Source: Nitratireductor thuwali (GTDB lineage: Bacteria > Pseudomonadota > Alphaproteobacteria > Rhizobiales > Rhizobiaceae). From it: a stretch of 64,000 nucleotides of DNA. A program made the translations under genes and the position numbers. Numbering within the stretch: position 1 is the stretch's first letter; each line of letters begins with the position of its first letter. The DNA lies in NCBI RefSeq assembly GCF_036621415.1, contig NZ_CP030941.1, positions 496,001 through 560,000 on the forward strand, read 5' to 3'. Below, piece after piece: positions 1,347 to 14,281 of this stretch. The notes beneath the pieces are model-generated. The model ran no database searches. It saw only the letters and a program-made list of their open reading frames with translations, and had not been told where the DNA came from.

Positions 1347-3863
1347 CTAGCCGTCGGCCCGCAGCGCCGCATTTTCCGGGTCGAACGGGCTCTCGGCGAT
1401 CACGGTCGCTTCGTGCAGCTTGCCGAGAATCTTGATCTCCAGCCTCGTCCCCTCGCCCGCCGCCTCCGGGCGCACCATGGCAAGCGCCAGGCTCTTGCCG
1501 ACGCGCCAGCCATAGCCGCCATGGGTCGCCCGGCCGATCAGCTTGCCGTCGCGGTAAATGGCTTCATTGCCGCGCGCGTCCGCATCGGTGATTCCGTGCA
1601 CCTCGAGCGTGACATAGTTCCAGTTGAGACCCTCCTCCCGCTGCCTGACGAGAGCGTCACGGCCGATGAAATCGCCTTTCTCCAGACGCACGAAACGGTC
1701 CAGCCCGCTTTCCCAGGCGGTATATTCGATGGAAAGCTCGCGCGGAATGAGGCGGTAGCTCTTCTCGATGGCCATGGCGGTCATGGCGCGAATGCCGAAT
1801 GGCTTTATGCCGAACTCGGCGCCGGCCTCCATCAGCATGTCGAAAATGGCGTTCTGCATCTCGATCGGGTGATGCAGCTCCCAGCCGAGCTCGCCGACGA
1901 AATTGACCCGCAGGGCGTGCGCCGTGGCATGGCCGAGCGATACCTTGCGACCCGACAGCCATGGAAAATCTGCATTGGCAAGCCTCGTGCGCGTGAGTTT
2001 CCTCAGAACTTCCCGGCTTTTCGGCCCAGCCAGCACCAATACGCCCCACTCCTGCGTTATCGGGAACATGCGTACGCTGCCGTCCGCCGGCAGGAGCTTC
2101 ATCAGCACATCGTGGTCATGCGCCTCGTAGGCACCGGCGGAGACGAGGTAGAAGCCCTGCGGCTGGCGGTAGACGGTAAATTCAGAGCGCACGCCTCCCT
2201 GCTTCGTCAGGATGTGGCACAGGGCTATGCGGCCGACCTTCTTCGGGATGCGGTTGGCGAAGATGTGCTCCAGCCACGCCTCCGCGCCTGGCCCGCCGAT
2301 CCAGCACTTGGCGAAGGCCGACATGTCGAGCAGGCCGACATTCTCATGAACGTTCCGCACCTCGTTGCCCACATGCTCGAAATAGTTCGAACGGCGGAAC
2401 GACCACTTTTCGACGATGCGGCCGTCTTCCAGGGGCGGCGCGTGATTGTGCTTCATCAGCACGTCCGCGCCGACGCCGAGTTCTTCGGCGGGCACTTCAT
2501 AGCCTTCCGGAGCAAACCAGTTGGGCCGCTCCCACCCATAGACCGAGCCGAACACCGCGCCGAGCGACTTCATGCGGTCATGGCAGGGGGTCGTCTTCAG
2601 CGGCCGGGCGGCGGCACGCTCCTCGTCCGGGTAATGGACGGTGAAGACATTGGCGTAAGCCTCCTCGTTCTTCTCGACGAGATAGCCTTCCGTCGCATAG
2701 GGGCCGAAGCGGCGCGGGTCGACGCCCATCATGTCGATTGAGGGCTCGCCCTCGACGATCCATTCGGCAAGCTGCCAGCCGGCGCCGCCTGCCGCCGTAA
2801 CGCCGAAGGAATGGCCCTCGTTAAGCCAGAAATTCTTGAGCCCCGGAGCCGGCCCTATGATGGGCGAGCCGTCGGGCGTATAGGCGATGGCGCCATTGTA
2901 GATCTTCTTGATGCCCACCTCGCCGAAGGCCGGCACACGCTCGATCGCCGTCTCCACATGCGGCATGAGACGTTCCAGGTCCTCCTGGAACAGTTCGTAC
3001 TCGCTATCTTCGGACGGTCCGTCGACATAGCAGCATGGCGCGCCCTTCTCATACGGCCCGAGCAGCAGGCCGCCATTTTCCTCGCGCATGTACCAGGAAG
3101 AATCGCTCTCGCGCAGAACGCCCATTTCCGGCAGACCCTGCTTCTTGCGGGCGACGATGTCTGGATGCGGCTCGGTGACGATATATTGGTGCTCGACCGG
3201 GATCACCGGCACGTCGAGGCCGACCATCGCTCCGGTCTTGCGCGCGAAATTGCCGGTGCAGGAGACGACGTGCTCGCAGGCGATGTCGCCCTTGTCCGTC
3301 TTCACCACCCAGCCCCCGTCCGCCTGCTGCTCGATGCCCGTCACAGCCGTGTTCCGGTAGATGGTTGCGCCGAGGTCGCGCGCGCCCTTGGCCAATGCCT
3401 GGGTCAGGTCGGCAGGCTGGATGTAGCCGTCGTCCGGGTGCTGGATGGCTCCAAGAAGTCCGTCCGTCTCGCAAAGCGGCCAGACCTCCTTCACCTGCTC
3501 GGGCGTCAGCGTCTTTACCGGAATGCCGATCGTCTCGGCGATGCCGGCATAATACATGTACTCGTCCCACCGGTCCTTCGTGCGCGCGAGCCGGATGTTG
3601 GAGCACTGGGTGAAACCGACATTCATGCCGGTCTCCTGCTCGAGCTCCCGGTAAAATCTCACCGAATATTTGTGTATCTGGCCTACCGAGTAGCTCATGT
3701 TGAAGAGCGGCAGTAGTCCGGCGGCATGCCAGGTCGAGCCGGAGGTCAGTTCCTTGCGCTCGACCAGGACGACATCCGACCATCCCTTCTTCGCCAGGTG
3801 GTAGAGCGTCGATACACCGACCACGCCTCCCCCGATGACGACCGCGCGCGCCTGGTTTTTCAT
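1347..3863 (-). CDS. FAD-dependent oxidoreductase with GcvT domain (dimethylglycine/sarcosine dehydrogenase-like)
   Basis: The 838-aa product starts with a Rossmann FAD-binding site (V-I-G-G-G-V-V-G, residues about 9-16) of the DAO family, followed by S-G-S-T-W-H-A-A-G typical of dimethylglycine and sarcosine dehydrogenases. A FAO_M linker follows at about 370-430, then a GcvT aminomethyltransferase domain (about 430-700) and a GcvT C-terminal barrel to the end. Family members oxidise N-methylated glycines and pass the methyl group to tetrahydrofolate. The length is normal for the family and no break is seen. The exact substrate cannot be read from sequence. A GGGAGCAGG stretch precedes the ATG. 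The sarcosine oxidase operon 10 kb away fits a methylated-amine diet. Confidence 0.88.
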   Translation of the reverse strand: MKNQARAVVIGGGVVGVSTLYHLAKKGWSDVVLVERKELTSGSTWHAAGLLPLFNMSYSVGQIHKYSVRFYRELEQETGMNVGFTQCSNIRLARTKDRWDEYMYYAGIAETIGIPVKTLTPEQVKEVWPLCETDGLLGAIQHPDDGYIQPADLTQALAKGARDLGATIYRNTAVTGIEQQADGGWVVKTDKGDIACEHVVSCTGNFARKTGAMVGLDVPVIPVEHQYIVTEPHPDIVARKKQGLPEMGVLRESDSSWYMREENGGLLLGPYEKGAPCCYVDGPSEDSEYELFQEDLERLMPHVETAIERVPAFGEVGIKKIYNGAIAYTPDGSPIIGPAPGLKNFWLNEGHSFGVTAAGGAGWQLAEWIVEGEPSIDMMGVDPRRFGPYATEGYLVEKNEEAYANVFTVHYPDEERAAARPLKTTPCHDRMKSLGAVFGSVYGWERPNWFAPEGYEVPAEELGVGADVLMKHNHAPPLEDGRIVEKWSFRRSNYFEHVGNEVRNVHENVGLLDMSAFAKCWIGGPGAEAWLEHIFANRIPKKVGRIALCHILTKQGGVRSEFTVYRQPQGFYLVSAGAYEAHDHDVLMKLLPADGSVRMFPITQEWGVLVLAGPKSREVLRKLTRTRLANADFPWLSGRKVSLGHATAHALRVNFVGELGWELHHPIEMQNAIFDMLMEAGAEFGIKPFGIRAMTAMAIEKSYRLIPRELSIEYTAWESGLDRFVRLEKGDFIGRDALVRQREEGLNWNYVTLEVHGITDADARGNEAIYRDGKLIGRATHGGYGWRVGKSLALAMVRPEAAGEGTRLEIKILGKLHEATVIAESPFDPENAALRADG

Positions 3864-3986: not shown

Positions 3987-5183
3987 TCAGAGACCGCGGT
4001 TGGCCGGCACCAGATCGAAACGCGGCCGCCAGGACGCTATCAGCACCACCGCCATGCCGGCGATGAAGACGAAATAGAAGCGGTCGTCGGGAAGCGGAAA
4101 GCTGGCGAATTTGCCCAGCGTGCCGATGGCCAGCGCGAAGACCAGCCCATTGGCCCGGCGGCCCCCGATGCGGCCGAATTTCGCCAGCAGCGCCCAGGCC
4201 GCCGTCAGCGCCGCCAGAATCGCCGGCCAATCATTGGCTTGCAGGGCCACGACAACGCCGCGCACATAGCCCTTGATCATCAGAAGGACCGAGAAATCCG
4301 GCGAAAAGCCCGCCATCGAATTCTGCATCTCGACGCAGGAGAAATAGAAATGGGCCCACCAGCCGGGATGCCCGCCGAATTTCGAGATGGCCATGCAGGC
4401 GGCGAAGGCGGCGACGAAGGTGACGGCGATGGGCAATTTTCGCCCGTTGAACAGGATGGCGGCAATCAGCAGGGCGAAGATGAGGATAAGGTTGTCGGGC
4501 CGCACGAAGACCGAAACGAAGAGGCAAAGGCAGCCCACGACGTCCCGCCCGCGCCAGAAGGCGTAAAGCGCCGCCATCGACACCAGCGCCAGAAGCATGT
4601 CCGGCGCGACGGCGGCAGTCATGCGCGAATAGTCGGCCACGAGCAGAAGCGGCACCAGGAAGAAGGCGCCCTGCAACGCCTCGGCCCGCCACAGCCAGTA
4701 AAGGCACAGCATGCCCACGAGGAATGATGGAACGACGCTGAGGAGGATGGAGGCGTCGATCAGTCCCGTCACGGGCTCCAGAAGCCGCATCAGGCCGATA
4801 TAGGCGGCCTTGACGCGGTACATGGACAATTGGGACTGAAAATCGTCCGGCTGTTCCCACTGGTTCAGATTGTAGGGGTTTGAGAACTTCAGGTGGTATT
4901 GCTGCTTCTCGCTGGCCCCTTCGTCGATCAACTGCCAGGTGGCGGCGTGCAGCTCCCGCGGGTCCTCGAACCGGTTTTCAAGGGCGGTCGCCACATAGGC
5001 GACCATGTCCCAGTTGTAGTCGGGCCGCAGCAGCCCGTAGGCGGCGACCGCGAGAACGGAAAGCACCAGGAAGAGGGCCGCCAGCCGGTCGAGCGCCGAC
5101 CGGACAAGGAGCGCCTTCAGGATGCCCGCTCCCGGCCTGCTGGCGAATGCGCGCCCGATCGGCGTTTCGTCGACTGTACTCAT
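3987..5183 (-). CDS. Polytopic membrane protein, possible GT-C-type glycosyltransferase
   Basis: I do not recognise a named family. The 398-aa product has a hydrophobic helix near residues 33-50 (A-A-L-F-L-V-L-S-V-L-A-V-A-A-Y-G), then a soluble loop of about 100 residues with acidic and aromatic groups (D-Y-N-W-D-M-V-A-Y), then about eight further membrane helices. An early periplasmic loop with acidic residues followed by many helices is the general plan of GT-C glycosyltransferases that use polyprenyl-phosphate sugars, but no diagnostic motif proves this. It is the last gene of the minus-strand cluster running from 11059, 55 bp after the aminotransferase. That position suggests the cluster's membrane-bound acceptor step. 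Function is inferred. Confidence 0.6.
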   Translation of the reverse strand: MSTVDETPIGRAFASRPGAGILKALLVRSALDRLAALFLVLSVLAVAAYGLLRPDYNWDMVAYVATALENRFEDPRELHAATWQLIDEGASEKQQYHLKFSNPYNLNQWEQPDDFQSQLSMYRVKAAYIGLMRLLEPVTGLIDASILLSVVPSFLVGMLCLYWLWRAEALQGAFFLVPLLLVADYSRMTAAVAPDMLLALVSMAALYAFWRGRDVVGCLCLFVSVFVRPDNLILIFALLIAAILFNGRKLPIAVTFVAAFAACMAISKFGGHPGWWAHFYFSCVEMQNSMAGFSPDFSVLLMIKGYVRGVVVALQANDWPAILAALTAAWALLAKFGRIGGRRANGLVFALAIGTLGKFASFPLPDDRFYFVFIAGMAVVLIASWRPRFDLVPANRGL

Positions 5184-5238
5184 GCCTGCCCCGCTCCGGA
5201 CGTGCCCAACCGTCCGCCCCTGTTCAACTCGACTGCGT

Positions 5239-6711
5239 TCAGCCCATCTGGCTCTTCACGAAATCCTTGACGATCGAGACCACGCCCCGGCCCAGAAGCT
5301 GGTCCAGTGCATCGACGAAGGTGTCGACGTGGCTCCGCTCGACGATGAGCGGCGGCTCGAGCCGTATGACGTTGCGATTATACTCGGTGAAGGCGACCAG
5401 CACATCATGATCGCGCAGAAGCAGCGCACCGATGAAGCCGGACAGCGATCCCTTCAGCTTGTCGTCGAGCATGCCGACCATCGGCCGCATCACCGCCGGC
5501 AGCGTCTGTGAAAAGTCCTGAAACTCCAGTCCGACCATGCAGCCCTTCCCGCGCACGTCCTTGATGATCCGCGGATATTTTTCCTTGAGGCCGTTGAGGC
5601 GCTCGATGAGGTAGCCGCCGACGGCTTCCGCGTTCTCCATCAAGCCTTCATCGTAAAGGACGTTGAGCCCCTCGATCGAAGTGGCGCAGGCTTCGCCGAT
5701 GCCGCCGAACGTCGCCATGGCATGGATCATCGCGGTTTTCGGCGTGCCGTAGGCCTTCATGTAGACGTCGCGCTTGGCTATCATTGCGCCCACCGCCGCC
5801 TTGCCCGCACCGAGTGACTTGGCGAGCGCGGTGATGTCCGGCACCACGTCATAGTGTTCGAAGGCATAGAAGCGCCCTGTCCGGCCGAAGCCGCACTGCA
5901 CCTCGTCGGCCACCCATATCACGCCATGCCGGTCGCAAAGCTGGCGCAGTTTCTGCCAGTATTCCGCTTCGGCCTGAATGATGCCGCCGCCGCCCTGAAC
6001 CGTCTCCAGGACGATGGCGCCAATCTCGGGGTCGGACTTGAAGGCATTCTCCACGGCATCGATGTCGCCGAAAGGCACCCGCACCGTATTGTCGGTCAGG
6101 CGGAACTCGCCGCGATAGAGCTGCCCGTCGGTCAGCGTCAGAACGCCCTTCGTCTTGCCGTGGAAGGAGTTCTCGGCATAGACGATCTTCGGCCGCTTCG
6201 GCCCCGCCGCGCGCTCGGCCAGCTTCACCGCCGCTTCCATTGCCTCGGAGCCGGATGAGCCCAGAAACACCATGTCGAGGTCGCCCGGCGAGCAGGCGGC
6301 GAGGTTCGCAGCCAGCGCCGTCGCATATTGCGACATGAAGGCGATGGCGATCTCATGACGCTTTTCTTCCTGGAACTTCCGTCGCGCCTCCAGGATGCGC
6401 GGGTGGTTGTGGCCGAAGGCCAGCGAGCCGAAGCCGCCGAAGAAATCGAGAATTTTCCGGCCGTTCTGGTCGATGTAGTACATGCCCTCCGCGCTCTCGA
6501 CCTTCACCTTGTGGAAGCCGAGAAGCTTCATGAAGTGGAACTGGCCGGGATTGAGGTGAGCCTTGAAGAGCTCGGTCATCCGCTCGGTGGGAAGCGCCTT
6601 GGCATCCTCGACGGAGTAAAGGTCCGGCTTGGTGATCGTGCGCGGCGCCAGTTCCGGTGCATTCATGACGGGCATGGCTCCCTCGGCCTCGGTCTTCGTA
6701 AGTACGGTCAT
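5239..6711 (-). CDS. Class III pyridoxal-phosphate aminotransferase
   Basis: The 490-aa product is a fold-type I omega-aminotransferase of the acetylornithine/putrescine group. Visible motifs are F-G-G-F-G-S-L-A-F-G-H-N-H-P in the N-terminal part, G-S-S-G-S-E-A-M-E-A-A cofactor phosphate binding, S-F-H-G-K-T, V-A-D-E-V-Q-C-G-F-G-R-T-G with the PLP-contacting Asp, and A-L-A-K-S-L-G-A-G, whose Lys should form the Schiff base. It is somewhat longer than the usual 400-460 aa, with an N-terminal extension of about 50 residues. AGGAG lies about ten bases before the ATG. The epimerase gene ends 12 bp upstream, so the two are surely co-transcribed. It probably installs an amino group in the cluster's product, but the substrate is unknown. 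Confidence 0.85.
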   Translation of the reverse strand: MTVLTKTEAEGAMPVMNAPELAPRTITKPDLYSVEDAKALPTERMTELFKAHLNPGQFHFMKLLGFHKVKVESAEGMYYIDQNGRKILDFFGGFGSLAFGHNHPRILEARRKFQEEKRHEIAIAFMSQYATALAANLAACSPGDLDMVFLGSSGSEAMEAAVKLAERAAGPKRPKIVYAENSFHGKTKGVLTLTDGQLYRGEFRLTDNTVRVPFGDIDAVENAFKSDPEIGAIVLETVQGGGGIIQAEAEYWQKLRQLCDRHGVIWVADEVQCGFGRTGRFYAFEHYDVVPDITALAKSLGAGKAAVGAMIAKRDVYMKAYGTPKTAMIHAMATFGGIGEACATSIEGLNVLYDEGLMENAEAVGGYLIERLNGLKEKYPRIIKDVRGKGCMVGLEFQDFSQTLPAVMRPMVGMLDDKLKGSLSGFIGALLLRDHDVLVAFTEYNRNVIRLEPPLIVERSHVDTFVDALDQLLGRGVVSIVKDFVKSQMG

Positions 6712-6723
6712 TTCGGCAAACTC

Positions 6724-7731
6724 CTATTCGGCCGGCACATGATGCGCGCCGACATTGTCGCCGGCTTTCTTGGCCCGATATTCGTCGTAGGCGGCGATCA
6801 GCATGTCCTCGTCGCGGTATTGCGGCACCCACCCCAGCTCTCGCCCGCCCTTGGAGACGTCGAGAACGCACATCTCGTCGGCGATCAGGTACTGCTCGGG
6901 GTCCATCAGCGGCATGTTCAGGAGATCGAGCAGATCGAGCGTGCGCTTGACCGCCCAGCCCGGCGTCGGAACGAGCAGTGATCTGGAACCGGCATGCTTC
7001 ACCAGATTGCCCAGAAGCGTGCGCACCGGAGGCGGATTGAGCGAACCCAGATTATATGCCTCGTTGGGCACGCCAGCCTTCCACGCGAGCCGCGCTGCCT
7101 GCGCGCAGTCGAACACGGAAATGAACTGGTAGGGGTTCTTGCCCGAACCGATCATGGGCACCGGCAGGTTCATGTCGACCAGCTTGAAAAGCTTTTCGAG
7201 GATGCCGAGCCGCCCCGGGCCGATGATGAGGCGCGGGCGGAACAGCGAGATGTTCATGCCGCGCTTGCGCCACTCGGCGGCAAGCATCTCCGTGTCGAGC
7301 TTCGACTGGCCATATTCGCCCAACGGCGAGACTGGGTGGTCCTCCGTCATCGGATAGGTGACCGTATGGCCGTAGATCATGTCGGTGGTGAAATGGACGA
7401 GATTCTTCGCGCCCGCCTTGTCCATGGCCCCGATGATGTTCACCGTGCCGTGGTAGTTCACGGGATAGAAGAAGTCGTGGCGTTTGGCCCGCACCTGGAT
7501 CGGCGACAGCATCTTGGCCGACAAATTGTAGACCATGTCGTCCGGCGCGATTGCGACCGCCGCAACCGCGGCAGGATCGGTCACGTCGCACTGCACGAAT
7601 TTCGCCTTGCCATAGTGTGGCAGGTCGCTCTTCACGATATCGGCGACGACGACCGTCTCGCCGTCGGCCAAAAGCTTGGGTGCAAGATGACGGCCGACAA
7701 AGCCGTCACCGCCGAAGATGATGTGTTTCAT
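6724..7731 (-). CDS. NAD-dependent epimerase/dehydratase (extended SDR)
   Basis: The 335-aa product starts M-K-H-I-I-F-G-G-D-G-F-V-G-R, a GxxGxxG dinucleotide-binding motif at the very N-terminus. D-M-I-Y-G and the catalytic Y-G-Q-S-K (YxxxK, about residue 140) follow, as in extended short-chain dehydrogenases acting on nucleotide sugars. A longer open frame upstream exists, but its extra residues are out-of-frame reading of the transporter gene. The ATG at 7731 overlaps the transporter stop by four bases (ATGA), which fixes the start. In context it may be the reductase or epimerase partner of the DprE1-like oxidase. Note that mycobacterial DprE2 is a classical rather than an extended SDR, so equivalence is not assured. 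Confidence 0.85.
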   Translation of the reverse strand: MKHIIFGGDGFVGRHLAPKLLADGETVVVADIVKSDLPHYGKAKFVQCDVTDPAAVAAVAIAPDDMVYNLSAKMLSPIQVRAKRHDFFYPVNYHGTVNIIGAMDKAGAKNLVHFTTDMIYGHTVTYPMTEDHPVSPLGEYGQSKLDTEMLAAEWRKRGMNISLFRPRLIIGPGRLGILEKLFKLVDMNLPVPMIGSGKNPYQFISVFDCAQAARLAWKAGVPNEAYNLGSLNPPPVRTLLGNLVKHAGSRSLLVPTPGWAVKRTLDLLDLLNMPLMDPEQYLIADEMCVLDVSKGGRELGWVPQYRDEDMLIAAYDEYRAKKAGDNVGAHHVPAE

Positions 7732-8159
7732 TGGACGACAGACCCTTTGGACTGAGATGAACCCTGCGCGACCTCGGTCTCCGGCGTATCGCGGCCGCTC
7801 TGGGCGATCAGCACCGTGCCGAGACAGATCAGCGCGATGCCGGCAATGCGGTAGGCGTTGAGATCCTCGCGGAAGATGAAGTAGGCAAACACCGCCACCG
7901 CGACATAAGCGAGGCTGAGGAAGGGATAGGCGAAGGACAGCTCGACCTTCGAGAGGACGTAGAGATGCGAGGCCATCGACACCACGAACACCGTCAGACC
8001 CGCGAAAATCCACGGGCTGAACACGATCTGCAGGATCTTGAACAGCGGATTGACGCCGGCGAAGGTGAGCGGGCCCAATGTCATCATGCCATGCTTCAGC
8101 ATGAGTTGCGCCGCGGCGTTGGTCATCACCGTGAACAGGATGAATGGAATGTACTTCAT
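7728..8159 (-). CDS. EamA/SMR-type small transporter (ArnE/ArnF-like flippase candidate)
   Basis: This 143-aa protein has four hydrophobic helices of the drug/metabolite transporter superfamily (about 5-22, 46-66, 74-92 and 98-118) and a polar tail. The S-F-A-Y-P-F-L-S-L-A-Y-V-A stretch and the final I-A-G-I-A-L-I-C-L-G-T-V helix resemble EmrE-like proteins and the ArnE/ArnF subunits that flip undecaprenyl-phosphate-aminoarabinose. It sits between the DprE1-like oxidase and the SDR and overlaps the SDR start by four bases. A lipid-sugar flippase role is inferred from this context. In mycobacteria a small GtrA-family membrane protein is encoded beside dprE1. Confidence 0.75.
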   Translation of the reverse strand: MKYIPFILFTVMTNAAAQLMLKHGMMTLGPLTFAGVNPLFKILQIVFSPWIFAGLTVFVVSMASHLYVLSKVELSFAYPFLSLAYVAVAVFAYFIFREDLNAYRIAGIALICLGTVLIAQSGRDTPETEVAQGSSQSKGSVVQ

Positions 8160-8276
8160 TTCGGATTGCCCCGCTTGTCCCGCTGTCCTGCATAGACGGC
8201 GGAAGAAAAAATCGCGTGAAGCGGTCCGCTCGAATGCCGCCTCCTGCAGTTACCTTCCGGAAAGAACTTCACGGCC

Positions 8277-9629
8277 CTACTCCGCCGCCGGCTGAAGGTA
8301 GGCTGGACCCAGCCGCACCGCCGTCCTGCGCCAGAAGTCCGACATGAAGGCGGGATCGCGGAAGCGCTCGAGTTCCTCCCAGCCGGGAAACGATGCCGCG
8401 AAGACGTCGGCGCCCATGCGCGCATCCTTGTACGGATTGACCGCTCCGCCCGCGTCCACCGTGATGGCATCCAGCCTTGCCAGAAGATCGAGCGTGGCCC
8501 TGCCCCGGTTGGGAAGATCGAGCGTCAGCGTGTATCCCGGCCGGGGGAAGGACAGGATTCCCGGCGAAGCCGTCCCGCCGAACCGCTTGAGCACGGTGAG
8601 GAACGAGGCCTGCCCCGCATCGCGCGCGGCCTGAAGCATGGCGGGAACGGCTTTGCGGGCCGCCTCCTCCGGCACCACACTCTGGTGCTGATAAAGCCCC
8701 CCGGGCCCGTAGAGCCGGTTCCACCCACGCACGCCGTCGAGCGGAAAGAAATAGCCGCGATAGGGGGCGCGATTGACCCCCGTCCTGCGGCCCTTGGCCC
8801 AGCGATAGGCGGCGTTGAACAGCCTTATCGAGGCGCTGTTGAGCATGTTGAACGGCGGCTGGAAGGGAACGCCCAGCCTTGGCTTGCGCGCCGGCGAAAA
8901 GCTCCCGCCATGGCGGGCATGGTTGGCCGTCATCAGCAGCCCTCTGCCCGCCTTGCGCCCGCCGGCAAGCTGGTCGATCCAGGCTACCGCATATTCGTTT
9001 TCGGCGTCGGCCTCGACGGCGCGGTCGAAATATTCGTCGAGCGTGGCAAACGGCGTGATGTGCTCGTCGACATCGGCGCTGCCAACCTTCAAGAGCCGGA
9101 TGCTGGCCCCCAGGATCAGGCCCGTCAGGCCCATTCCGCCGATGGTCGCGCGGAAATAGTCCTCGTTCTTGCGCGGCCCGCATTCCAGGATCGTTCCGTC
9201 GGAACGCATCAGCGTGAACGAATGCACATGGCAGCCGAAGGTGCCGCGGCGATGGTGGTTCTTGCCGTGAATGTCGTTGGCGATGGCACCGCCGAGCGTG
9301 ACGAGCTGCGTTCCTGGCACGACGGCGGGGAAGAAGCCGCTTGGCGCGGCAAGGGCGATGATGTCGCGCAGCAGAACGCCGGCCTCCGCCTGCAACAGGC
9401 CGGAGCCGGCATCGAAGGAAAGGATGCGGGCCCGTCCGCGCATATCCGCGAGCCTGCCGCGGGAGTTCTGGCAGCTGTCGCCATAGGAGCGGCCATTGCC
9501 GTAGGCGAGCAGACCGCCGGCCGCCGGTGTGCCGCTTTGGAGAAGCTCTATCGCCGCGTCCGCCGTAATTGCATTGCGGCCCGCAGGCGTCGCCATGCCG
9601 AAACTGGGATAGCTGTCTCGCATCGTCAA
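8277..9629 (-). CDS. FAD-binding oxidoreductase, DprE1-like (decaprenylphosphoryl-ribose 2-oxidase family)
   Basis: The 450-aa product has a PCMH-type FAD domain in its first 200 residues: Y-G-N-G-R-S-Y-G-D-S contacts FAD, V-V-P-G-T-Q-L-V-T-L-G-G-A-I-A-N-D-I-H-G-K-N-H-H is the pyrophosphate-binding segment, and G-T-F-G-C-H-V matches the stretch that in mycobacterial DprE1 holds the Cys attacked by benzothiazinones. The C-terminal half is the substrate-binding domain. DprE1 oxidises the 2'-OH of decaprenylphosphoryl-ribose to the keto sugar, the first half of a two-step epimerisation to arabinose. It starts with an ATGA overlap on the HAD-UbiA gene, whose likely product would be its substrate. 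The family call is firm; the sugar is inferred. Confidence 0.85.
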   Translation of the reverse strand: MTMRDSYPSFGMATPAGRNAITADAAIELLQSGTPAAGGLLAYGNGRSYGDSCQNSRGRLADMRGRARILSFDAGSGLLQAEAGVLLRDIIALAAPSGFFPAVVPGTQLVTLGGAIANDIHGKNHHRRGTFGCHVHSFTLMRSDGTILECGPRKNEDYFRATIGGMGLTGLILGASIRLLKVGSADVDEHITPFATLDEYFDRAVEADAENEYAVAWIDQLAGGRKAGRGLLMTANHARHGGSFSPARKPRLGVPFQPPFNMLNSASIRLFNAAYRWAKGRRTGVNRAPYRGYFFPLDGVRGWNRLYGPGGLYQHQSVVPEEAARKAVPAMLQAARDAGQASFLTVLKRFGGTASPGILSFPRPGYTLTLDLPNRGRATLDLLARLDAITVDAGGAVNPYKDARMGADVFAASFPGWEELERFRDPAFMSDFWRRTAVRLGPAYLQPAAE

Positions 9630-11059
9630 AGGCCCGCGGCGAAAAGCAGGAGCGCGCCCAGGCCCGCCACGGCCTGGCTGCGCCAGTCGCGGATGATGAA
9701 GACGATCGGATCGTCATGCATCTCGTCGCGCCGCGCCAATATCCAGATGCGCATGGTGATGTAGAGCACGATCGGACCCAGCGGCCAGATGAGCCAGGGA
9801 TGAGTGTAGAGCGCGTCGATCGTGTCGCTCTGGATATAGAGCGCCAGCACCAGCGCCGAGGAAAAGGCGGACGCCATGCCGGCCTGAGCGATGATCTCCT
9901 GATCCTCGAGCCGGTAGCCGCGCCCTGCCAGGCGCTCGCCGACGGGCACCTCGGTCGAACGCAGCTCCACATAGCGTTTGACCAGCGCCAGCGAGAGGAA
10001 GAAGAACACCGAGAACGCCAGCAGCCAGAACGATACTTCTATGCCCGTCGCCGCGCAGCCGGCCAGGATACGCAGGGTGTAGAGGCCCGCCAGCATGAGC
10101 ACGTCCACCAGAAGCATGCGCTTGACCGCTATCGAATAGGCGGTCGTCGTGACGAGATAGAGCGCCAGCACGGCGGCAAAAACAGGGGGCAGGAAAGCCG
10201 CTGTGCCTGCAGCCACGAGCAGCAGCACCGCCATGGCGCCCAGCCCGAACGGGATCGACAGGACGCCGCTGGCCAAAGGCCGGTTGCGCTTGGTGGCATG
10301 GCGCCTGTCGAGCGCCAGATCGAAGAAGTCGTTCAGGATGTAGATGGCCGACGCCGCGGCGCTGAAGGCGATGAAGGCAAGCGTCGCGTCCAGCAAGACC
10401 GGTGGGTTGCCATATTGATGCGCCAGTACGAGCGGCACGAAGATCAGCGCGTTCTTGAGCCACTGATGCACGCGAAGCATCTTCGCGATCGTGCGCATCG
10501 ACACCTTCGGCGCCGCGATCAGCTCGCCGCCATGGGCCGCCTGCCACACGGAGGCTGCCCGGTCCGGCGCCACGACCACCGCCTGGCGGGCCGCCTCGAA
10601 CACCTTCAGATCCGCCTTGCTGTTGCCGGCATAGTCGAACCCGCCATCGCCGAAGGCCGCAACCAGCGCATCGCGTTTGGTGACGGATGCCATGTTGCAA
10701 TGGGGGTCGGTGCACAGCACCTGGTCGAAAACGCCCAGATGAGCGGCCACCTTCTCGGCGAGCAGGCGCGGCGAAGCGGTGGCCAGCACGATATATCGCC
10801 CCGCTGCCTTTTCTTCCTGCAGCTTTGCCAGCAATTCCGCGCGATAGGGCAGTGCGGCAGGATCGAAATCGATGCGCTCGGCGATGCGGCATTTGAGATG
10901 CGCCCGCCCCTTCATCAGCCACAATGGCAGAAGAAACAGGCACAGCGGCCGCTTGCGGATCAGCAGAAACAGACTTTCCCAAAGAAGATCGGCCGCGATC
11001 AGCGTGCCGTCGAGATCGACGGCAAGCGGTACCGCAATGCGCTCGGATCGCGCGTCCAT
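9626..11059 (-). CDS. HAD phosphatase-UbiA prenyltransferase fusion (decaprenyl-phosphate phosphoribosyltransferase-like)
   Basis: The 477-aa protein has two parts. Residues 1 to about 190 are a HAD hydrolase (V-D-L-D-G-T-L-I near residue 14, then A-T-A-S-P-R and a Y-A-G-N-S-K-A-D metal-site region). From about 195 on it is a UbiA membrane prenyltransferase with eight or nine helices. The motif N-D-F-F-D-L-A-L-D-R-R-H-A-T-K-R-N-R-P with A-S-G, and the later K-R-Y-V-E-L, are much closer to mycobacterial DPPR synthase (Rv3806c) than to ubiquinone-type UbiA. That enzyme transfers 5-phosphoribose to polyprenyl phosphate, and a phosphatase then removes the 5-phosphate. The fused HAD could do this second step. 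It is the first gene of the minus-strand cluster. Confidence 0.85.
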   Translation of the reverse strand: MDARSERIAVPLAVDLDGTLIAADLLWESLFLLIRKRPLCLFLLPLWLMKGRAHLKCRIAERIDFDPAALPYRAELLAKLQEEKAAGRYIVLATASPRLLAEKVAAHLGVFDQVLCTDPHCNMASVTKRDALVAAFGDGGFDYAGNSKADLKVFEAARQAVVVAPDRAASVWQAAHGGELIAAPKVSMRTIAKMLRVHQWLKNALIFVPLVLAHQYGNPPVLLDATLAFIAFSAAASAIYILNDFFDLALDRRHATKRNRPLASGVLSIPFGLGAMAVLLLVAAGTAAFLPPVFAAVLALYLVTTTAYSIAVKRMLLVDVLMLAGLYTLRILAGCAATGIEVSFWLLAFSVFFFLSLALVKRYVELRSTEVPVGERLAGRGYRLEDQEIIAQAGMASAFSSALVLALYIQSDTIDALYTHPWLIWPLGPIVLYITMRIWILARRDEMHDDPIVFIIRDWRSQAVAGLGALLLFAAGL

Positions 11060-11273: not shown

Positions 11274-11537
11274 CTAGCGGATCCGGCCGCGGCCGCCGGT
11301 GATCTCTATGGTCTCGGTCCCGGTCAGGACCTCACGGTCGCCATTCGGCATGGTGACGAAGCAGCCGGCCGGGCAGAACTCGATGGTTTCGCCGGGGCCG
11401 ATCGTAATATCGGCCTGGCTGCCGCCTTCGGTCACGGTGATCGTGCGGGGATCGCCGTCCCGGTTGACGGCGCTGGCGGCCAAAGCAGCCGCGGCGCTGG
11501 CCAGAACGGCCGCGAATGCAAGAAGAGTCCGCTTCAT
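11274..11537 (-). CDS. Small secreted protein of unknown function
   Basis: The product is 87 aa. M-K-R-T-L-L-A-F-A-A-V-L-A-S-A-A-A-A-L-A-A is a clear signal peptide with cleavage near residue 22. The mature part is about 65 residues with a two-Cys segment, E-F-C-P-A-G-C-F-V, and ends in a G-G-R-G-R-I-R tail. The ATG at 11537 is preceded by GAGGGAACAAC, a good ribosome-binding site; the longer upstream frame has no such site. I know no named family, though similar short Cys-pair periplasmic proteins occur in Hyphomicrobiales. It is monocistronic, with its own terminator. Confidence 0.75.
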   Translation of the reverse strand: MKRTLLAFAAVLASAAAALAASAVNRDGDPRTITVTEGGSQADITIGPGETIEFCPAGCFVTMPNGDREVLTGTETIEITGGRGRIR

Positions 11538-11659
11538 GTTGTTCCCTCGGTGTCTCCACCGCCTCTGTCGTTCCGCCACGTCACGATGCGCGACGGATAC
11601 CTCTGTCATTCACGACCCTTATAGGCATAGCCATGTGAACGGCAACTGAACGGTGCGCT

Positions 11660-14095
11660 TCACTCGTTTTGCGCCTGCGCTTCCTCGTTTTCGATCTCTT
11701 TGCCGTCCGATCCGGACGCCCCGGCTCCAGACGGGACCGGGCCGGAGCGGACATGGATATCGCGCTGCGGGAAGGGAATCTCGATGCCTTCCCTTTCGAA
11801 GGCCTCGACGATGGCAAAGCGGATTTCGTTCTGCACTTCGAGCTGCGCCAGGATGTCAGCGAGGTAGACGCGGATCTCGAAATCCAGCGAAGAATCGCCG
11901 AACCCGGCAAACAACACGAAGGGCTCGGGGTTTTTGAGGACGAGCCGATTGTTCTGGGCGATCTCCAGGAGGATCGCATGCACCTTCTTCACATCGGTCC
12001 CGTAGGCCACGCCGACAGGTATCTCCACGCGGCCAAGGCTGTTCTTGTGGGTCCAGTTGCCCACCGCCGCGTTGATGAGCTCCGAGTTCGGCAGGATCAC
12101 CGTCTGGCGCTGGAAGGTCTCGATCTCCGTCGCCCGCACGGAAATCTTCTTGACCGTTCCCGACACCGTGCCCGCCACGATCCAGTCGCCCGCCTTGAAC
12201 GGCCGCTCGACCAGCAGGATAAGGCCGGAAACGAAATTCTCCAGGATGTTGCGCAGGCCGAAGCCGATGCCCACGGACAGCGCGCTGGCCACCAGCGCCA
12301 GGCTCGACAGGTCGATGCCCGCCGTGGCAACGCCGAACAGGGCCGCAACCACCACGCCGGCATAGCCCACCGCGGTGCGCACCGAATTGCGCACGCCCGT
12401 GTCGAGCCGGCTGCGCGCCATCACCCGACCGTCAAGCCAGCCCTGGAACCAGCGCGCGACGAAATAGCCGACGATGAACACCAGAAGCCCGGTCAGGATG
12501 CCGACGAGGGAAAAGGAGATGTTGCCGATGCTGACCCTGTTTGCGATGCCGTAGGTCCAGGCGGTCAATTCGGCCCAGTGGAAGCCCCACTGAAAAAGGA
12601 TCAGCGGCGCTCCGACCAGCACCACCGCCACGTTCGTGGCCAGTCCCGCCACCAGCCCGAGCTGATCGAGTGTCGTGCTGTCCAGGCTGAAGCGCCGGGA
12701 CAACAGCCGCCCCACCGCCGATCCGGCGAAGATCCCGTCGCCTGCCATGGCGCCCCCGGCCAGGAAACCGATATACATGGTCGTCAGGATGGCCCCGGTG
12801 ACGACGACCTGCTGCGACAGGAACCTCGAAAAGCCGATGTAGCCGAACAGCGCCGCGATGATCGTGGCCGCCGCAAACCCATATATCGCCACCCGAAAAG
12901 AGATCGGCCAGGGACGCGGCGGCGCGCCCTCCTTCCCGGCGAACGGCCTTACCGACCCGATCAGGATCAGCAGCACGCCGACGATTATGGTGGCGAGAAA
13001 GCTCGTCGCCACCGTCAGCGACAATTGCGAGCCGAACAGCTCGTAGAGCCTGTTCATGAAGAAGTCGAAGGCGGTAACCGCCGCCGTCGCCCCCACCAGC
13101 AGGCACAGTTTGCCGGCCGCGCCCGTTTGGACCGGCAAAAGCCGCCAGTTCTCCCGCGTCGGCGCGAGGATGCCGTGGGCGAGCCGATAGACGAAGAAGA
13201 CCACGACCGCCACGGAAAACAGCGTCCAAAGCAGCTCGGAAATATCGCCGCGAAGGATCCCGAACGTGTCGAGGAAGAAATAGGCCGAACCCAGGAAGAT
13301 GGCGAAGGCAGCCGAAGGCAGCAGTGTCGACCACAGGGCGAGCGAAAGGCGGCTTAGATAAGTCGGCTCGGCATCATGAAGGTCCGGATCGATCAGATTG
13401 CCGAAGAGCCTGCGCCCGGCCAGATGCAGCACCAGGGCTGCCGCCAGCGAGAAGAACACCGCCAGCAGAAAGCCCCGCAGCTTGAACGTGGTCGCAAAGC
13501 GCAGCCAGGAGGAGACTGTCGTGTAGACCTTTCCCATATCCGTATGGAATTCGTGGGCGACGTCGCTGCTCAATGCGGCGGTTATGTCGTAGCGCCTGGA
13601 AAGCGCGCTGGTGAACAGGTCGCGGCGCATTTGCGCGATCTGCTCTATCGTCCGGTTGATCTGCAGTGAAAGCGCTTCGGCTTCGCCGATCAGCGCGTTG
13701 ATCTCCGCCTTCTCGTCGAGCAGTCTCTGGCGCTCGCGCTGGACCAGTTCCGGCTCAGCCGGCTCGCCCTCCGCCCGCTCGGGTCCCAGCTGTTCAAGCC
13801 TGTCGTTGATCTCTGAAATGCGCGGACGAAACGCGACGCCGCTGGCAAGGAGCTCCCGCACCAGCCTCTCCAGTTCCACGCGAATCTGGACCAGGCCGGT
13901 GTCGTCGCTCGCCTTCTCCCGAAGCTGGGCGACAAGCTTCTCGGTCTGCCGGGAGATCTCATCGATCTTCTCGTCCTGGCTGGCGATAAAGCCGTTGCTG
14001 ACCTCGGACTGAGCCAGGGCCGGCGCACAGAAGATGACGGTCAACAGGAGCAGACAGCCTGAGAATGCTTTGACGAAATCCGACAGGCTGGCCAC
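11660..14095 (-). CDS. MscS-family mechanosensitive ion channel with DUF3772-type N-terminal region
   Basis: The product is about 811 aa. A signal peptide (S-D-F-V-K-A-F-S-G-C-L-L-L-L-T-V-I-F ending A-L-A-Q) is followed by a periplasmic helical region of about 150 residues rich in Glu and Arg, then about ten membrane helices. The MscS pore and beta domain come last: the family pattern G-I-G-F-G-L-R-N-I-L-E-N-F-V-S-G near residue 630, then E-R-P-F-K-A-G-D-W-I-V. It ends in a charged, low-complexity tail. Large MscS proteins release solutes on osmotic downshock. The open frame reaches a TTG at 14155, but the GTG at 14095 directly precedes the signal peptide, so I prefer it. The gene is divergent from soxB. 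Confidence 0.87.
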   Translation of the reverse strand: MASLSDFVKAFSGCLLLLTVIFCAPALAQSEVSNGFIASQDEKIDEISRQTEKLVAQLREKASDDTGLVQIRVELERLVRELLASGVAFRPRISEINDRLEQLGPERAEGEPAEPELVQRERQRLLDEKAEINALIGEAEALSLQINRTIEQIAQMRRDLFTSALSRRYDITAALSSDVAHEFHTDMGKVYTTVSSWLRFATTFKLRGFLLAVFFSLAAALVLHLAGRRLFGNLIDPDLHDAEPTYLSRLSLALWSTLLPSAAFAIFLGSAYFFLDTFGILRGDISELLWTLFSVAVVVFFVYRLAHGILAPTRENWRLLPVQTGAAGKLCLLVGATAAVTAFDFFMNRLYELFGSQLSLTVATSFLATIIVGVLLILIGSVRPFAGKEGAPPRPWPISFRVAIYGFAAATIIAALFGYIGFSRFLSQQVVVTGAILTTMYIGFLAGGAMAGDGIFAGSAVGRLLSRRFSLDSTTLDQLGLVAGLATNVAVVLVGAPLILFQWGFHWAELTAWTYGIANRVSIGNISFSLVGILTGLLVFIVGYFVARWFQGWLDGRVMARSRLDTGVRNSVRTAVGYAGVVVAALFGVATAGIDLSSLALVASALSVGIGFGLRNILENFVSGLILLVERPFKAGDWIVAGTVSGTVKKISVRATEIETFQRQTVILPNSELINAAVGNWTHKNSLGRVEIPVGVAYGTDVKKVHAILLEIAQNNRLVLKNPEPFVLFAGFGDSSLDFEIRVYLADILAQLEVQNEIRFAIVEAFEREGIEIPFPQRDIHVRSGPVPSGAGASGSDGKEIENEEAQAQNE

Positions 14096-14281
14096 GCGGG
14101 TGTGATTCCCTTCAATTCCGGCACCATTGATAGTCGCCGCGCGAAAACCGGGCAACCACGCCGTTCAGGGCACCGGTTCAGCCGAAAGGTCGGTCAACTG
14201 AAAAGGCAGGGCGTATTATTTGCGTCCGCCCGCGCTCGTGCCCTATAGCTTCAGGTCGAATGGGGACGACCGATCAAGACA

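Follow-up and report, generated by a model that had tools for sequence, protein, structure and literature searches.

A Nitratireductor gene cluster with a class III aminotransferase in the position of DprE2, a candidate source of a lipid-linked aminopentofuranose

What stands in for DprE2 in a bacterial cluster that otherwise resembles a polyprenyl-phosphate-pentose pathway? This directly testable question is raised by six genes at positions 3987-11059 of a 64,000-nucleotide stretch of the Nitratireductor thuwali genome (NCBI RefSeq GCF_036621415.1, contig NZ_CP030941.1, 496,001 to 560,000 of the forward strand; hereafter, the window). They encode a HAD-UbiA fusion, a DprE1-like oxidase, a small SMR-type transporter, an extended short-chain dehydrogenase/reductase (SDR), a class III pyridoxal phosphate (PLP) aminotransferase (AT) and a polytopic membrane protein. 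An earlier note, made from the sequence alone, had described them as one minus-strand block recalling the mycobacterial DprE1/DprE2 pathway, possibly in an amino-sugar variant; all six open reading frames (ORFs) were found where it had placed them, and family and profile scans bore out its assignment of the proteins.

The aminotransferase and DprE2 across genomes

The occurrence of the AT and of DprE2 was compared in 61 related genomes, the window's own included, with cut-offs of E ≤ 1e-80 for the AT and 1e-20 for DprE1. The AT was present in 17 of them, with at least 75% identity in each, and DprE1 in 22. All 17 AT genomes had the order UbiA-DprE1-SMR-(SDR)-AT on one strand, the SDR being missing from one, which argues that the grouping of these genes is not due to chance; the synteny that the earlier note had proposed to examine is thus kept within the family. 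UbiA-DprE1-DprE2 was the arrangement in the other five genomes with DprE1, of which three belong to the window's own genus. A whole-genome search with a DprE2 model gave no match at 1e-25 in any of ten AT genomes, that of the window among them, and a single match in each of four comparison genomes (176-187 bits, under the curated cut-off of 250). For the window's genome, this speaks against a plain DprE1/DprE2 arabinose pathway. In the same genus, the UbiA-DprE1-DprE2 version has as a neighbour a protein of 834 aa that bears an arylsulfotransferase-type domain (locus L062, 8919-11423).

Sampling of the class (385 genomes) yielded relatives of the AT (1e-110) in two genomes and DprE1 (1e-30) in 53. 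Forty-eight of these 53 DprE1 loci were examined, those of G202, G250, G345, G352 and G423 being left out for weak or short DprE1 matches. A DprE2-like short SDR adjoined DprE1 in 42 of the 48, with identities down to 28%, the AT was found in two (the window and G265) and a distant class III aminotransferase in one (G387). None of the 48 held both the AT and a DprE2-like gene, and the AT and DprE2 were never seen together in the sampled loci. Exact (Fisher) tests, with genomes treated as unrelated, gave values of 3.8e-5 for the relatives and 0.013 for the class.

In a sample of the phylum (398 genomes), the AT was found at 1e-100 in seven, six belonging to the window's family and one (G785) to its order. 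A scan of named genomes returned 437 AT relatives, the best 80 of which were kept as named loci; since these are close kin (Nitratireductor, Mesorhizobium, Chelativorans, Aquibium and other Rhizobiaceae, Phyllobacteriaceae and Hyphomicrobiales/Rhizobiales), they show conservation rather than independence. The AT and the SDR were present in all 80, DprE1 and the SMR transporter in 79 each, UbiA in 78 (absences lying at contig ends) and the GT-C gene in 69, and DprE2 was found in none of these best 80 loci. Matches below 55% identity for the AT, 40% for the SDR and 60% for sarcosine dehydrogenase were left out of the named-locus patterns, and the AT alignment comprised 16 of the 17 AT genomes, G009 being omitted because its match held a TAG. 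Judged by AT sequence, the closest named record is Nitratireductor luteus (98%), and the five genes are also found in Neorhizobium, on a replicon that is recorded as a plasmid.

Two loci outside the family are rearranged. G265 belongs to a different family of the class. Its proteins share 71% (SMR), 64% (SDR) and 67% (AT) identity with those of the window, as against 28% for UbiA and 39% for DprE1; its UbiA has the UbiA domain alone in Pfam and scores 242 against a cut-off of 234 for decaprenyl-phosphate phosphoribosyltransferase. The genome G785, which belongs to a different family of the order, has SMR-SDR-AT on one strand and DprE1-UbiA on the other, with approximately 1.6 kb between them. 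In a DprE1 tree of 78 rows (including 8 of the 80 named loci), the bootstrap of which is not quite settled, the G265 row lies behind several starred branches in the half where 39 of 43 rows are of the DprE2 type. The remaining rows linked to an AT group in a single clade of the opposite half, beside eight DprE2-type rows. By the starred branches, the AT label must have changed at least three times, and one of these changes is attributed to the untrusted row L203; as this row sits on a very long branch, its position was not used. The identities of the G265 proteins, together with the placement of its DprE1, indicate that the AT was joined to a second DprE1 lineage, and the SMR-SDR-AT set is thus combined with two different UbiA/DprE1 lineages. 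As the AT sits where DprE2 would be, in the relatives, the class loci, the model search and the tree alike, the amino-sugar variant is now better founded than when it was first raised.

A candidate pathway and its alternatives

In our judgement the cluster probably, with considerable room for doubt, supplies the periplasm with an aminopentofuranose that it builds on polyprenyl phosphate. In the proposed route, polyprenyl phosphate would receive phosphoribose from phosphoribosyl pyrophosphate (PRPP) by the action of UbiA, after which the 5-phosphate would be stripped by the HAD domain. The DprE1-like flavoenzyme would oxidise C2 to give a keto sugar (2-keto-pentofuranosyl-phosphate-polyprenol), the keto carbon of which would be aminated on the lipid by the AT, replacing the reduction by DprE2 and yielding 2-amino-2-deoxy-pentofuranosyl-phosphate-polyprenol. 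The extended SDR would be an optional tailoring enzyme, perhaps an epimerase; the ArnE/F-like SMR transporter would flip the donor, and the GT-C enzyme would pass the sugar to an envelope acceptor.

With regard to the last two steps, the SMR transporter is ArnE/F-like by sequence (52 bits against the ArnF model, under the cut-off of 99) and was linked to the AT in all 17 AT genomes compared. The polytopic protein, in which W58-D59 is conserved, gave no Pfam match in the family scan, and its structure model gave no match at E ≤ 0.001 in a plain Foldseek search, where ArnT ranked first at 0.047. The GT-C fold, which the earlier note had proposed to look for by fold prediction, was established by structural realignment. 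The GT-C alignment comprised 17 of 223 homologues found (120 listed), the window and six locus stretches. A second copy of this protein, 32% identical and a possible second donor user, lies at G000:C1:3361875-3362927 (L165), near genes that ORF reading assigns to heme biosynthesis and ispH. The GT-C match of G014 (L050, 2848-4041) has an in-frame TAA and may be broken, misassembled or over-extended.

The alternative that survives best concerns the extended SDR, which carries the motifs GGDGFVG at residue 7 and YGQSK at residue 140. If this enzyme, and not the AT, replaced DprE2, the cluster would make a standard donor of arabino- or xylofuranose, with the AT acting elsewhere, for example on the acceptor; we regard this as unlikely, although it deserves serious attention. 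The SDR is present in every named locus and in 16 of the 17 AT genomes compared, and it accompanies the SMR transporter and the AT in the rearranged G265 and G785 loci. Moreover, according to the available parts of PMC11127046, the SDR epimerase ORF13 of Citrobacter sets ribo- versus xylofuranose side chains. However, an SDR match at 1e-25 was missing in two of the three AT-bearing genomes of one genus, namely G034, with the order UbiA-DprE1-SMR-AT, and G801, with DprE1-SMR-AT in a short locus; the completeness of the latter genome is 79%, and more remote SDRs of G034 (best 5.9e-15) could substitute. That the AT persists without the SDR in that genus agrees with a tailoring role for the SDR and argues against its being the sole substitute for DprE2.

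The AT itself carries an AKSLG motif from residue 297. Among curated models it scores best with PigE, and the top PDB match, 4ppm, is listed as 'Aminotransferase' and is presumably PigE. A PigE-type prodigiosin aminotransferase was rejected: the single neighbourhood compared, on a Methylocystis iwaonis plasmid, bears polyketide genes, unlike the window's cluster. Another reading, which we hold to be improbable, is that the AT aminates a different carbon, such as a C5 aldehyde, or that its substrate is a lipid other than a polyprenyl one, in the manner of HpnO and ribosylhopane. Terminal carbonyls are a frequent target of class III enzymes. The best relative of the AT in G421 (34-35% identical) is probably HpnO, since HpnN lies 0.8 kb away from it and squalene-hopene cyclase about 7.5 kb; the window's AT is 34% identical to it, and the range with the G265 and G785 relatives is 34-37%. 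HpnO is reported, in the available parts of PMC12583986, to convert the ribose-bearing lipid ribosylhopane to aminobacteriohopanetriol, a precedent for the amination of a lipid-borne, ribose-derived carbon by a related enzyme. Squalene-hopene cyclase, on the other hand, gave no match at 1e-30 in six of seven AT genomes searched (G000, which is the window's, G004, G010, G033, G034 and G785), so that a hopanoid is not the substrate there, and HpnO identity was rejected for the window's genome. The seventh, G265, does carry the cyclase; there the argument fails, and gene linkage alone speaks against HpnO. As to the carbon, the nearest solved relative of the DprE1-like oxidase bears the name ribofuranose-2-oxidoreductase and DprE2 that of a 2-ulose 2-reductase, which indicates C2.

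The relationships of the two enzymes that would precede the AT, from PRPP to the keto sugar, speak for the favoured route. The HAD-UbiA protein scored 633 bits against NF006088 (cut-off 351) and 146 bits against the decaprenyl-phosphate phosphoribosyltransferase model NF008978 (cut-off 207), and it matched the solved mycobacterial enzyme 8j8j (E 1.6e-27). For the UbiA half, decaprenyl-phosphate phosphoribosyltransferase models reached 9e-43, versus 8e-8 for ubiquinone, 3.5e-5 for heme and 1.7e-4 for chlorophyll models. In line with this, its reading as a protein like decaprenylphosphoryl-5-phosphoribose synthase stands, and by profile scores it does not group with the ubiquinone, chlorophyll or heme types, a grouping of which the earlier note had said that it would make its proposal fail. 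The HAD motif DLDGT starts at residue 15 and the UbiA motif NDxxDxxxD at residue 243; by motif position, and not by alignment to ORF15, N243, D244, D247, D251 and D15 answer to named residues of Citrobacter ORF15. The oxidase, likewise supported as DprE1-like, matched NF053785 (E 1.4e-94, 318 bits, under the cut-off of 500) and 4aut (E 5.6e-61), which is named a ribofuranose-2-oxidoreductase. A UbiA with the usual quinone, heme or chlorophyll chemistry among chance neighbours, which the breadth of the superfamily and weak ubiA_proteo and cyoE matches might suggest, is extremely improbable, since the best phosphoribosyltransferase model leads those models by more than 30 orders of magnitude, on which ground such an identity was rejected, and the gene order kept in all 17 AT genomes contradicts chance.

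Several observations weigh against the favoured route. The Fisher tests ignore relatedness, and in 3 of the 48 class loci DprE1 is accompanied by neither partner, a contig end accounting for just one of them. The window's UbiA and DprE1 both fall under curated equivalog cut-offs, and the structure model of the AT (pLDDT 55) is too poor for inspection of the active site. Well-characterised class III aminotransferases mostly use open-chain carbonyls, and a ring ketone beside an anomeric phosphate would be an unusual substrate. The SDR, given its presence in all of the best 80 named loci and its company with the AT and SMR genes in G265 and G785, may matter more than assumed. The GT-C gene lies within the flanks in 69 of those 80 loci and adjoins the AT in 10 of the 17 compared AT genomes, so it may not be a dedicated donor user everywhere. 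Finally, the cluster has no known product, substrate or mutant, and we infer all of its reactions, the aminated carbon, the stereochemistry, the product, the lipid and the acceptor.

More tentatively, and with somewhat less than even confidence, we suggest that bacteria may have a general route in which amino sugars are made directly on polyprenyl phosphate by an oxidase and a class III aminotransferase, here yielding an aminopentofuranose from PRPP, and that related modules of different composition may exist in Actinomycetota (Nonomuraea, with AT, SDR and UbiA) and in G387, another alphaproteobacterium (with AT, DprE1-like oxidase and ArnC/PgfS-like glycosyltransferase). If the proposed pathway is true, Mesorhizobium, Nitratireductor and their relatives would bear an amino-bearing pentofuranose in the envelope, made in an unusual order of steps, with amination on the lipid rather than on a nucleotide sugar. 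It would also explain a conserved cluster, give a class III aminotransferase family a function and supply enzymes for aminofuranosides.

The gene block and related loci

The six genes and their predicted roles are compiled in Table 1. Of the two 4-bp overlaps that had been described, the one between SMR and SDR (7731-7728, ATGA) is certain, whereas that between UbiA and DprE1 (9629-9626) requires an upstream TTG start of DprE1 at 9629, which would give a protein of 450 aa; with the ATG start, there is a 2-nt gap instead. The remaining intergenic gaps, calculated from the coordinates, are 117 nt (DprE1-SMR), 12 nt (SDR-AT) and 55 nt (AT-GT-C).

Table 1. Genes of the cluster in the window, listed from UbiA to the GT-C gene.
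Gene product	Position	Strand	Length (aa)	Predicted role
HAD-UbiA fusion	9626-11059	minus	477	Predicted PRPP:polyprenyl-phosphate phosphoribosyltransferase with N-terminal 5-phosphatase (HAD) domain
DprE1-like flavin adenine dinucleotide (FAD) oxidase	8277-9623	minus	448 (from ATG)	Predicted C2 oxidation of polyprenyl-phosphoryl-ribose to the 2-ulose
ArnE/ArnF-like small (SMR/EamA) transporter	7728-8159	minus	143	Predicted flippase of the lipid-linked sugar
Extended SDR, GalE-like	6724-7731	minus	335	Probably accessory epimerase or reductase
Class III PLP aminotransferase (AT), PigE/HpnO-like	5239-6711	minus	490	Predicted amination of the 2-ulose, in DprE2's stead
GT-C-fold polytopic protein	3987-5183	minus	398	Predicted glycosyltransferase, from polyprenyl phosphate to acceptor

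Two neighbours, a sarcosine dehydrogenase-like gene (1347-3863) and an MscS-like gene (11660-14155), were dropped as pathway members because their linkage differs among relatives. Upstream, at 11274-14155 of the window, a 111-aa small protein and an MscK-like channel adjoin the cluster in most named loci examined.

Three more distant loci, with aminotransferases from a further branch of the family, are leads, not proof. In Nonomuraea gerenzanensis (L216, 5992-9462), a distant class III aminotransferase, an extended SDR and a UbiA of the phosphoribosyltransferase-like kind (186 bits against a cut-off of 234) adjoin one another, with no DprE1 among the 60 of 64 rows listed for this record. The G387 run (L203, 2405-11327) comprises a flippase-like TIGR00374 protein (just under the cut-off), a class III aminotransferase, a DprE1-like oxidase (179 bits against a cut-off of 500), an ArnC/PgfS-like glycosyltransferase and two large proteins with no family match, read as membrane proteins; it holds no UbiA or DprE2 and, judged by its gene content, looks like another lipid-linked aminosugar module. 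An Embleya sp. run (L217, 2434-10969) combines a DegT-type aminotransferase, an ArnC-like glycosyltransferase, FAD oxidoreductases and a class III aminotransferase, the names DegT-type and FAD oxidoreductase being those of ORF reading.

Comparison with known systems

In the open-access literature, we found no report of an aminotransferase variant of such a pathway and no natural 2-amino-2-deoxypentofuranose glycan, and a name-based search of it returned no amino-bearing envelope pentofuranose for Mesorhizobium, Nitratireductor or their relatives. The mycobacterial decaprenylphosphoryl-arabinose pathway (Rv3806c, DprE1, DprE2) has in common with the window's cluster a UbiA-type phosphoribosyltransferase, DprE1 homologues and a GT-C-fold protein, the fold of its arabinosyltransferases. 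The cluster differs in the fusion of HAD to UbiA, in the presence of the AT and the extended SDR, and in the lack of a DprE2 match (1e-25) in the window's genome.

The Nod-factor arabinosylation genes to which the earlier note had pointed are related only in part. The noeC, noeH and noeO genes are described as resembling mycobacterial arabinose-donor genes (PMC5080398, PMC2443382). A close likeness between the operons was not supported: the available parts of these papers name an arabinosyltransferase (noeP) and no aminotransferase for noeCHOP. Furthermore, noeCHOP is part of a nod operon, while the window's cluster lies on a 4.2-Mb contig where no nod genes were noticed, none having been searched for.

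The likeness to HpnO lies in an aminotransferase acting on a ribose-carrying lipid (PMC12583986, available parts); the lipid would be a different one, and the window's genome has no squalene-hopene cyclase match at 1e-30. The Arn pathway, which leads to undecaprenyl-phosphate 4-amino-4-deoxy-L-arabinose, aminates at the nucleotide-sugar stage, ArnA and ArnB working on the UDP-sugar. The cluster resembles it in the ArnE/F-like SMR transporter, in a GT-C model closest to ArnT and in a lipid-linked aminopentose as the presumed end product, but would start from PRPP and aminate on the lipid.

The closest parallels are the three-component systems of Kelly et al. 2024 (PMC11127046), among them those of Citrobacter youngae O1/O2. 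As described in the available parts of the paper, these add pentofuranose from polyprenyl phosphate to a periplasmic glycan and consist of HAD-UbiA, a transporter and a GT-C protein, joined by epimerases. They share with the window's cluster a HAD-UbiA polyprenyl-phosphoribose synthase, a small transporter and a GT-C protein, together with an SDR or DprE1/E2 in some. The words aminotransferase, transaminase and PLP are missing from the main text of that paper, and the window's cluster is unlike those systems in pairing a class III aminotransferase with DprE1, DprE2 not being found. Polyprenyl-phosphate pentofuranose systems are thus already known, and our results suggest that the new element here is an aminotransferase in place of DprE2.

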